A program made the position numbers and the translations under genes. From assembly GCA_002726205.1 (NCBI GenBank), contig PBSL01000004.1:2923-66922 (forward strand): a stretch of 64,000 nt of DNA. Direction: 5' to 3'. Positions 26,336 to 29,044 of the stretch are shown here, piece after piece; positions within the stretch are counted from its first letter, which is position 1, and each line of letters begins with the position of its first letter. The DNA is from Planctomycetaceae bacterium (GTDB lineage Bacteria > Planctomycetota > Planctomycetia > Planctomycetales > Planctomycetaceae). The notes below the pieces were generated by a model. The model had not been told where the DNA came from, searched no databases, and saw only the letters and a program-made list of their open reading frames with translations.

Positions 26336-27739
26336 TCAGCGGCGGCCTGCCGCCGACCCGAATTGCAGTTCCAACAGCAGATTCTTGACGTCAGTCATCG
26401 CCACCTGGTCGCGGGCGATTGACGGCGAGGAACTGATCAGCACCGGTCCCTCGTCGTGTTCGCGTCCCGGTGACGGCAACCTGCCGTGACTGCCACGGAC
26501 GAGCGAAGCGTCCAGGCCGATCACGTCCATGTAATAGCGAAAACCGAGTTTCTTTCTGAGCAACCGACTCGCGACGCGCAGGCGAGGCCACGTCAACTCG
26601 GGATCCAGGAAGAGCTCAACCGGGTCGTAACCGGGCTTGCGGTGAATGTCCACGGTCCGGGCGTAATCAGGCGCCAGCGCGTCGTCGAGCCAGAAGTAGT
26701 AGGTGAACCAGGCCCCCGCCGCGGCGAGGGCAACCAGTTCACCGCTTCGATGGTGGTCGATCCCGAATTCGGCCTGGTCGGAACCGTCCAGGACTCTTTC
26801 GATTCCCCCGGTCTTTTCAAGAACTTCCCGAACGCGACCGGTGTCGGCGGGGTCGTCGACATAGATGTGAGCGATCTGGTGATCGGCCACGGCGAACGCC
26901 CGCGACGCACCCGGGTCCAGTGTCTCCCATCCGGTTGGTTCCCTGCGGACCGCCAGCAATCCCGCCTCGCGGAGCACGCGATTGATCGGCACCGGTCGAT
27001 CAACCGCGGTGATCGCGTACTCGGACACCACGACCACGTCGGCACCCTGTTCCCGGGCCGCTTCGATCACCCGGCCGGCCTCGCGATCGACCGCCTTCAG
27101 ATCATCGGCGATCGCCGGGTCGTCGGGTCCGAGCCGCTGGAGGTTGTAGTCAAGGTGGGGCAGGTAGACCAACGACAGTGATGGTCGATGCCATTTCAGG
27201 ACCCGGATCGCCGCATCGGCGATCCAACGGCTGCTCTGGATATCGGCCCCGGGCCCCCAGAATCTCATCAGGGGAAACACGCCCAGTTCCGCCTGGAGCC
27301 GGTCCCGGAGATCCTCGGGGTGGCTGTAGCAATCCATGATCTTGCGGCCATCGGCCGGGTAGCATGGTCGGGGTGTGACCGACCAATCAACGGCCGCGTA
27401 CATGTTGTACCACCAGAAGAGCTTGGCGGTCGTGTACGAGACATCTCGCTGCCGCGCGGCCTGGTAGATCCGTTCACCAGCGACAAGCCGATTCGATTGT
27501 CGCCAGAAGAAGACCTCGGCCAGGTCTCGCTCGTACCAGCCATTGGCAACAACACCGTGGTCGCGTGGCAAGAGCCCGGTCAGCAGTGTCGACTGTGCCG
27601 TGCAGGTGACCGCTGGAAACACCGTCCCCAGCGGGCAGGCAAAGCCGTCGCTGGCCAGGCGGGACAGATGGGGCGTGTGCTCACCAAGCATCGCGGGCGT
27701 GAGCCCGACCACGTCCAGAACGATCAGCGGCTGAGACAT
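26336..27739 (-). CDS. Alkaline-phosphatase-superfamily phosphodiesterase, EboF-like
   Basis: 467 residues of the nucleotide pyrophosphatase/phosphodiesterase branch. The N-terminal metal Asp is in VLDVVG, the nucleophile Thr in AVTCTAQSTLLTG, and a C-terminal HHRSGELV and HRKPGYDPVELF supply further ligands. Where many relatives have Ser-Asp-His-Gly, this protein has SEYAIT. No signal peptide. Gene order (small protein, TatD-like hydrolase, this gene) resembles part of the ebo cluster, which is linked to export of membrane-associated metabolites. The EboF equivalence is inference. It is 2 nt from the convergent DUF1080 stop. Confidence 0.7.
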   Translation of the reverse strand: MSQPLIVLDVVGLTPAMLGEHTPHLSRLASDGFACPLGTVFPAVTCTAQSTLLTGLLPRDHGVVANGWYERDLAEVFFWRQSNRLVAGERIYQAARQRDVSYTTAKLFWWYNMYAAVDWSVTPRPCYPADGRKIMDCYSHPEDLRDRLQAELGVFPLMRFWGPGADIQSSRWIADAAIRVLKWHRPSLSLVYLPHLDYNLQRLGPDDPAIADDLKAVDREAGRVIEAAREQGADVVVVSEYAITAVDRPVPINRVLREAGLLAVRREPTGWETLDPGASRAFAVADHQIAHIYVDDPADTGRVREVLEKTGGIERVLDGSDQAEFGIDHHRSGELVALAAAGAWFTYYFWLDDALAPDYARTVDIHRKPGYDPVELFLDPELTWPRLRVASRLLRKKLGFRYYMDVIGLDASLVRGSHGRLPSPGREHDEGPVLISSSPSIARDQVAMTDVKNLLLELQFGSAAGRR

Positions 27740-27756
27740 CGTTCAGGCACACCCGG

Positions 27757-28608
27757 CTAGTCCGTGTCGGCAGCGGCCCGACTGGTTTCCCAGAGAGTGT
27801 CGGGGGGAGTGAACTCGAATCGATCCGACCCACTGAAGAATTCGACCGGATTGTCGTAGACGATCTTCTTGATCTTCTTCTCGCTGTGCCCCCGACGCCG
27901 CATCTCCATGATGAAGTCGGGCACGGCGGTCGGGTTCGACGGTCCCCAGTCACCGGCCGAATTGACCATGATCCGATCATCCCCGTACATCTCGATGATG
28001 TCGGCAGCTCGCGACGGTGTGCACTTGGTGACCGGATACAGGGTCATCGCACACCAGAAACCTTCTTCCCGCGCCGCGCCCACGGTGTGCTCCTCGACGT
28101 GGTCGATCAGGACACGGTTGGGATCGACACGATCGTCCTCCAGGAGCATGTCGATGATCATCCGTGTGCCCTTCAGTTTGTCATCCAGGTGCGGCGTATG
28201 GATCAGGATCTGCTCGTTGGTCTTCATCGCCAGGTCGACGTGCTCGCGGAAAATCGTGCATTCGTTTTTCGTGTTCTTGTTCAGCCCGATCTCGCCAATC
28301 CCCAGCACGCCCGGATTGCCAAGAAACTCGGGGATCATCGCGATCACCTCGCGAGACAACTCAACGTTTTCCGCCTCCTTGGCATTGATGCACAGCCAGG
28401 TGAAATGCTGCACGCCCGACCATCCCGCGCGAGTCGGCTCGAACTCGGTCAACTGACGAAAGTAATCCCGAAATCCATCAACGCTGCCACGGTCAAAACC
28501 GGCCCAGAAGGCCGGTTCGCTGACGCCCACACATCCCATGCGAGCCATCCGCTCGTAATCGTCGGTGACACGGGAAATCATGTGGACATGCGGGTCGAAG
28601 AAGTACAT
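27757..28608 (-). CDS. TatD-family metal-dependent hydrolase, EboB-like
   Basis: 283-residue TIM-barrel hydrolase. Metal ligands expected in the family are visible: His-x-His in DPHVHM at the N terminus, Glu in GEIGLNKNTKN, His in LIHTPH, His in LIDHVEEH and Asp in NSAGDWG. Classical TatD proteins are deoxyribonucleases, but this branch has unusual sequence (FWAGFDRGSVDGFRDYF) and is closer to EboB-type hydrolases. GGAGTAGAAAG lies directly before the ATG and it follows the 87-aa gene after 4 nt. Confidence 0.75.
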   Translation of the reverse strand: MYFFDPHVHMISRVTDDYERMARMGCVGVSEPAFWAGFDRGSVDGFRDYFRQLTEFEPTRAGWSGVQHFTWLCINAKEAENVELSREVIAMIPEFLGNPGVLGIGEIGLNKNTKNECTIFREHVDLAMKTNEQILIHTPHLDDKLKGTRMIIDMLLEDDRVDPNRVLIDHVEEHTVGAAREEGFWCAMTLYPVTKCTPSRAADIIEMYGDDRIMVNSAGDWGPSNPTAVPDFIMEMRRRGHSEKKIKKIVYDNPVEFFSGSDRFEFTPPDTLWETSRAAADTD

Positions 28609-28612
28609 CTTT

Positions 28613-28876
28613 CTACTCCGTCGCTTCCGGTGCGTTCCAACCCGACTGGTATGGATCGCTGAAAATCACCTGGATCTGTTCGGCACGATTCAAACCGGGC
28701 CGGCAGAGGAGCTCGAGTCCCTGCTGGATCAGGCTTCGTCGCCGATCCTCCTGGACCGTTTCCGCATCCTCTGATCGATCGATGCGATCCAGCGATGCGG
28801 CCACCTGCAGAACCCGTGCGCGAATATCAAGATACACCTGGTCAAAGACCTCAGGCGCTGATTGCTGGGAATCCAT
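28613..28876 (-). CDS. Small conserved helical protein, 87 aa, first gene of the ebo-like set
   Basis: An acidic, helical, cytosolic protein with no recognised domain (DQVYLDIRARVLQVAASLDRID..., ending SDPYQSGWNAPEATE). A perfect AGGAGG lies 6 nt before the ATG at 28876, and a GTG 3 nt earlier is less well spaced. Its tight spacing with the TatD-like hydrolase suggests a shared operon. In the ebo cluster the first gene is EboA, which is much larger, so homology is not claimed. Confidence 0.65.
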   Translation of the reverse strand: MDSQQSAPEVFDQVYLDIRARVLQVAASLDRIDRSEDAETVQEDRRRSLIQQGLELLCRPGLNRAEQIQVIFSDPYQSGWNAPEATE

Positions 28877-29044
28877 CACAAGCCTCCTGAATACGTTCTC
28901 GGACAGCCCGAGGCCCTACCCCTAGTTTTGTCCGCGCCCCGGCCGAAATCAAGAGGATCGAGAATGACTCGGACCGGTGACCGCTCCCGACGGTGACGAT
29001 GGCAGCGGTCGCACGAACTGCATGGTTGTTGAGGCCGCCTGGGA

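Follow-up and report, generated by a model that had tools for sequence, protein, structure and literature searches.

The 64,000-nt stretch of DNA analysed here (the window; positions 2,923 to 66,922 of contig PBSL01000004.1 of a Planctomycetaceae bacterium, assembly GCA_002726205.1) carries three tightly spaced minus-strand genes, eboG, eboB and eboF, which form a real, functional-looking, split ebo locus of the eboG type, a kind known since 2016. We consider the trio, with a probability of about 0.55, to be a split-off eboG-eboB-eboF piece of an ebo pathway of the eboG type, wherein EboG is most likely a dedicated partner subunit of the G-type EboB and the pathway product is most likely a prenylated cyclitol lipid. 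In the published description of this form, eboG is a small gene replacing eboA, the two genes appear mutually exclusive, HHalign detects no homology between them, and A-type and G-type EboB separate in the tree with maximal support (Yurchenko et al. 2016, PMC5133447). The features of the locus are as follows.

28883..28888, minus strand: AGGAGG, likely ribosome-binding site of eboG, read from the sequence, 6 nt 5' of the ATG
28613..28876, minus strand: eboG, 87 amino acids (aa) from the ATG at 28876; small acidic protein (isoelectric point 4.4), predicted to be helical; EboA substitute
27757..28608, minus strand: eboB, G type, 283 aa; TatD-like metallohydrolase (PF01026)
26336..27739, minus strand: eboF, 467 aa (PF01663)

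The 467-aa protein matches the Phosphodiest family (PF01663) with 206.9 bits and is 53-56% identical to the EboF proteins of the Deinococcus operons, the range being 53-60% when Gemmatirosa is included. The 283-aa protein scores 30.8 bits against TatD_DNase (PF01026; cut-off 27) and is 56-57% identical to the EboB proteins encoded in two Deinococcus operons (query coverage 93-94%), and the tree and the operon context agree with this; tblastn against plasmids gave 56-58% identity in two Deinococcus plasmids and Gemmatirosa. A preliminary description of this DNA had likened the TatD-like and phosphodiesterase-like proteins to EboB and EboF, and their closest plasmid relatives, which lie in two Deinococcus operons with an annotated EboE and, by profile, in Gemmatirosa, bear this out. 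The 87-aa protein has no Pfam or NCBIfam match. It belongs to one family with the small protein encoded between EboD and EboB in the Deinococcus operons, and it occupies the EboA slot beside EboB, with EboA absent. It therefore fits the published EboG of PMC5133447, matched by description and through the Deinococcus operons, not by accession, and its suggested role as a specific factor agrees with EboG being the published substitute of EboA. EboG as a shortened EboA was considered and rejected: the hhalign probability between EboG and EboA is 0.3, the window protein has no match to NF035938 (EboA), and the genome searches also argue against it. Comparison with the Ebo families thus placed EboB and EboF through their operon relatives, and placed the small protein outside EboA.

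EboG is confidently predicted to be a small all-helical protein. Its AlphaFold2 model has a pLDDT (predicted local distance difference test) of 91.6, with helices at residues 7-34, 38-42, 45-58 and 64-72, and R19, D30, R31, R64 and S73 are invariant in 60 aligned sequences. When 31 family members were searched, the best E-values were 0.018 against Pfam and 0.006 against NCBIfam, in each case for one member and an unrelated family; the window protein reached an E-value of 0.07 at best against PHROGs, and the EboG profile 0.23 against the PDB. A fold search with the model gave a best E-value of 1.7, and VIA Z did not exceed 2.0 over 14 chains, which does not make the fold new. No report on EboG biochemistry was found in the literature searched.

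The neighbourhood of the trio was compared in the best 80 of 135 loci from a scan of genome contigs with the window EboB (the genome_contigs loci). Members of the EboG family lie upstream of EboB in many loci, here in 72 of the 80 or, counting only loci that have 450 bp or more of upstream sequence, in 72 of 76; two of the EboG genes lie 1.6 and 2.7 kb from EboB, and EboA was found in none of the 80. Both the position and strand of the trio in the preliminary description were confirmed, as three minus-strand open reading frames (ORFs) with gaps of 4 and then 17 bp, and so was a neighbourhood conserved in relatives: the full trio keeps its order and strand in four of the 80 loci (L146, L147, L148 and L201) and in Gemmatirosa kalamazoonensis (L037). 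The 1.5-kb flanks of EboB contain no EboF in any of the 29 nearest planctomycete loci. Partial clustering of another kind was observed in ten of the 80 loci (L174, L176, L177, L179, L186, L187, L188, L196, L200, L205), where EboF lies downstream of EboB on the opposite strand, followed by EboC in seven. The ratios of nonsynonymous to synonymous substitution rates (dN/dS) of eboG, eboB and eboF against L146-148 are below 0.2 in every comparison that allowed an estimate of dS, EboG versus L147 being saturated; these ratios are rough because dS exceeds 1 throughout, and all three genes look to be under purifying selection. Upstream, the trio is flanked by a 4HBT thioesterase gene in the same orientation; downstream, a 3-keto-disaccharide hydrolase gene runs convergently. 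Scans yielded one promoter site (0.4 expected) and three terminators (1.7 expected).

A survey of 294 Planctomycetota genomes (EboB at E<=1e-10, EboG at E<=0.001, EboE at E<=1e-20) detected EboB in 224, EboE in 187, EboA in 76 and EboG in 40, with one EboG copy each. EboA and EboG were never found in the same genome (0/294; chance 2e-6, ignoring relatedness). The 224 EboB genomes divide into 40 with EboG, 72 with EboA and 112 with neither, and EboE is present in 36, 67 and 73 of these, respectively. Among the 76 EboA hits, those in G223 and G008 are weak fragments; four EboA genomes lack an EboB match, and the truncated L105 row was left out of the EboA profile. Ranked by EboB score, the top 40 genomes coincide exactly with the 40 that have EboG (at least 312 bits; 51-100% identity to the window's EboB), the 41st scoring 277 bits at 47%. 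In addition, compact planctomycete clusters with the order B-C-F-D-E, F being missing in L102, were observed in L084, L085, L086 and L102; EboA and EboG are both absent from their vicinity, and this arrangement is perhaps a third operon form.

The G-type EboB carries a signature of its own. H7, H9, E106, H137, H140, H170 and D220 are kept in at least 97% of 72 EboB sequences, and we take them to be metal ligands by analogy with TatD enzymes. The signature consists of W71, an inserted L141 directly after H140, and E172 and H174 just after H170, so that its positions adjoin the conserved H140 and H170 of the presumed metal site. Counted as loci, not as independent species, it is present in 38/38 and 80/80 G-type loci (118/118) and in 0/34 and 0/20 others (0/54). 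The archaeal AF_1765 (3guw), the only PDB relative of EboB at E<=0.001, has the non-G state at these positions in the alignment, so the G state is probably derived. A single branch of the 72-row EboB tree separates all 38 G-type rows from the others, with an SH-aLRT (Shimodaira-Hasegawa-like approximate likelihood-ratio test) support of 99; the trees here were made by a quick method without bootstrap. In EboF, T45, H195, D197, D286, H287, H291 and H418 are kept in at least 95% of 18 sequences and are presumably catalytic, judging from the superfamily.

On the EboE tree (57 rows), the A/G label changes at least eight times, of which the starred branches force five to six. Within the window's own family, two genomes (G216 and G283) carry EboA together with an EboB only 41-42% identical to that of the window, whereas their EboE (58% and 54%) and EboF (69% and 65%) are as close to the window's as in EboG relatives. 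Because either pair, A/B or G/B, can accompany the same EboE and EboF within one family, the two look like interchangeable modules. In genus g3 (G227, G238), EboB groups with another G-type clade, while the EboE of G181, G227 and G238 stays in the family; by identity, EboG is no closer to one of these groups than to the other, and its joint transfer with EboB does not follow from this case.

The further pathway genes that were found lie elsewhere in the window genome (G000; assembly 96% complete). EboE is encoded on contig C43 (C43:13344-14465) with 410.1 bits, above the curated cut-off of 250, and a UbiA protein resembling EboC on contig C66 (C66:19170-20102) scores 183.8 bits on NF035940, below the 250-bit cut-off. 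The latter is UbiA by Pfam, is 41-51% identical to its matches in 16 same-family relatives, and in six relatives its matches adjoin MIPS (inositol-phosphate synthase). The preliminary description had offered two readings, a split cluster or a reduced system. These two genes support the split; reduction is not established, though searches of the genome yielded neither of the cyclases EboD and MIPS. The search proposed there for eboC, eboD and eboE thus recovered EboE and, under the cut-off, an EboC-like gene away from the trio, and no EboD: the sole match to the EboD query has 144 bits, of the size seen for presumed AroB in other genomes. MIPS was likewise not found. Since the assembly is 96% complete, absence of EboD or MIPS is not proven. 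EboA was not detected in G000 by NF035938, which also matched no control genome, nor by our own EboA profile, which finds EboA in 76 of the 294 genomes. Two neighbourhoods were also observed. The EboC-like gene (G000:C66:17733-20105, L004) starts 38 bp after a same-strand gene of the phosphoglucomutase/phosphomannomutase family, which could bear on the missing cyclitol source. Downstream of EboE (G000:C43:13284-17900, L001, L003) and in the same orientation lie XdhC-like, amidohydrolase-like and Gfo/Idh/MocA genes, the first two named from sequence reading, not by profile.

The cyclase step was surveyed in 44 genomes (the 40 EboG genomes plus G216, G283, G121 and G205) with Deinococcus EboD and Streptomyces MIPS as queries. 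The EboD query scored 278-406 bits in 25 of the 44 and at most 165 in the rest, a threshold that was set after the gap was seen; MIPS was found in 16, both together in none (chance 2e-9, ignoring relatedness), and neither in G000, G117 and G281. In six genomes (G048, G069, G181, G216, G227, G238) the MIPS and EboC matches lie at most 48 bp apart on the same strand, and one EboC-adjoining MIPS has both Pfam MIPS domains. MIPS also shares a locus with EboC in Gemmatirosa and occurs in Streptomyces and Halobaculum clusters. EboD and MIPS are both cyclitol-forming by family and are not homologous, and their alternation supports the isoprenoid-cyclitol product hypothesized in PMC5133447. Two of the three planctomycetes in that paper lack eboD, for which MIPS may be the reason. 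EboC-type enzymes of marine bacteria, on the other hand, farnesylate quinoline derivatives in E. coli (PMC9235831), which calls for caution on the acceptor. The main texts of PMC5133447, PMC6282210 and PMC9235831 contain no word beginning 'inositol', no paper combining MIPS and a prenyltransferase with ebo or planctomycetes was found in the literature searched, and the name SCO3242 was absent among the matches listed. A separate observation concerns EboF: among 17 same-family genomes, an EboF 65-70% identical to the window's goes with MIPS (8) and one of 42-44% with EboD (7). The window's EboF belongs to the 65-70% (MIPS-associated) class though MIPS was not found there, and G105 (53% and 37%, with EboD) falls outside both classes.

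Two unrelated helical proteins, each tied to one EboB type, exchange together with EboB against constant EboE and EboF, and for this reason EboA and EboG best fit dedicated EboB partners. EboG would bind the G-type EboB at or near its metal site, and binding might set the activity or assembly of EboB; the larger, unrelated EboA would do the same for the A-type enzyme. The EboA model (pLDDT 95.8) is that of a larger helical-repeat protein; it resembles generic helical-repeat proteins (best Z 9.2, rmsd (root-mean-square deviation) 6.0, 219 aligned; no Foldseek E-value below 0.001), which is no evidence of function. The EboG/EboB pair may then work with EboE, EboC and EboF in a pathway most likely making a prenylated cyclitol lipid, which is probably required for metabolites to be carried or moved across the inner membrane. 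EboA and EboG were previously proposed as regulatory subunits of an unnamed Ebo protein, or to act in a terminal step (PMC5133447), and EboA may help form an EboC-A-B complex (Klicki et al. 2018, PMC6282210); our data point to EboB as the Ebo protein that they partner. The role in transport comes from Nostoc mutants (PMC6282210). Tentatively, the ebo system might be pictured as a set of exchangeable modules, with EboA or EboG and the matching EboB site, EboD or MIPS for the ring step, one prenylated-cyclitol product, and a third, unrecognised cyclitol source in the window's lineage.

Several observations weigh against EboG being a dedicated partner within a complete pathway. Within the G type, EboG distances correlate with those of EboE (Mantel r 0.65) at least as well as with those of EboB (0.59), so no coevolution of EboG and EboB beyond species history is seen, although the test is not discriminating. 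EboG is away from EboB in seven of the 40 EboG genomes (G024, G087, G105, G126, G137, G194, G291), and four of the 40 lack EboE at the threshold used. Moreover, the EboG profile was built from EboB neighbours, so that 28 of the 40 match by construction; the 12 that gave no profile row are G024, G048, G069, G087, G105, G117, G126, G137, G181, G194, G290 and G291. By the profiles used, 112 of the 224 EboB genomes have neither EboA nor EboG, and such a partner is therefore not universal. A third partner was sought in 32 EboB loci without EboA or EboG, among which no common small neighbour emerged: the most widely shared ORFs overlap EboB in other frames, and the others are flanking genes common to eight loci. 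A more divergent EboG could still occur in other genomes. Finally, the window genome has no recognised cyclase.

This last point might be seen as a sign of decay, the trio being a remnant of an incomplete pathway whose cyclitol is scavenged or made by an unrecognised enzyme. Neither EboD nor MIPS was found in the 96% complete G000, and MIPS is also missing from the genomes of L146-148, the three nearest relatives, where EboD was not searched; five of seven other relatives have it. However, eboG, eboB and eboF look to be under purifying selection, their presumed catalytic residues are intact, and EboE and the EboC-like gene are present in the genome, which makes decay unlikely. That the three genes are merely an unrelated group around a TatD nuclease and a phosphodiesterase, unconnected with ebo, is highly improbable. 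The generic Pfam TatD score is indeed weak, and a same-strand EboF beside EboB is confined to the four relatives among 80, being absent from the 1.5-kb flanks in the 29 nearest genomes; but the operon context already contradicts such a reading, as EboB (56-57%) and EboF (53-56%) resemble their counterparts in compact ebo operons of Deinococcus, in which a member of the same small-protein family separates EboD from EboB, and EboB and EboE co-occur in 176 of the 294 genomes (Fisher 2e-21, ignoring relatedness).

It is also conceivable, if doubtful, that the end product differs between the EboA/EboB and EboG/EboB pairs and that their exchange alters the chemistry of the EboB step and not only its partner. 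The four G-type signature residues adjoin conserved histidines of the presumed metal site, as such a change would have it, and the option was left open by Yurchenko et al. (PMC5133447). Against it, genomes with the exchanged pair (G216, G283) retain the EboE and EboF of their lineage, and MIPS is found alongside either type of pair. If EboD and MIPS really substitute for one another next to the same prenyltransferase, a prenylated cyclitol is the probable product and gives chemists a target; planctomycetes with EboA or EboG in one family offer a natural test of the role of both small proteins. The ebo cluster occurs in many phyla, and in Nostoc the export of scytonemin depends on it. EboA/EboG exclusivity and the EboB split were published in 2016; no prior report of the planctomycete distribution, the pair exchange within a family, the EboB signature or the EboD/MIPS alternation was found in the literature searched, in which PMC5133447 was, by title, the only paper on eboG among the matches.

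Compared with known systems, the window genome has counterparts of EboB, EboE and EboF and an EboC-like protein in common with the eboA-type cluster of Nostoc punctiforme (PMC6282210), whereas EboA and EboD were not found in it (scytonemin genes were not searched); a role in export of the scytonemin monomer has been demonstrated only in Nostoc (PMC6282210). The ebo-like clusters of Streptomyces and Halobaculum (L038, L105, L042) share EboB and EboF counterparts, and in them MIPS replaces EboD, as in 16 of the 44 planctomycetes; the Streptomyces clusters have EboA and a prenyltransferase of the SCO3242 family, whereas neither EboD nor MIPS was found in the window genome. More similar are the two Deinococcus plasmid operons, with the order EboD, small hypothetical protein, EboB, EboE (annotated as such), EboC and EboF, and the unannotated Gemmatirosa locus, where profiles give G-B-F-C-MIPS with EboE on the other strand. 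Among planctomycetes, L055 and L057 have D-G-B-E-C-F, and L063 has the same genes spread out. The closest match is the eboG-type operon of PMC5133447, with which the window genome shares the replacement of EboA by a small unrelated protein and the lack of EboA in the genome; the negative HHalign comparison and the division of the EboB tree by A or G were reproduced here. The eboG taxa given in that paper are an Acidobacteriaceae species, Thermithiobacillus, Herpetosiphon and Deinococcales, and eboC is replaced in two eboG taxa; of three Planctomycetes the paper states that they show no clustering. In the present survey, by comparison, eboG was detected in 40 of the 294 planctomycete genomes; in most of these it is paired with eboB, and some have full operons. 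The window presents a G-B-F arrangement, with EboE and the EboC-like gene elsewhere in the genome.

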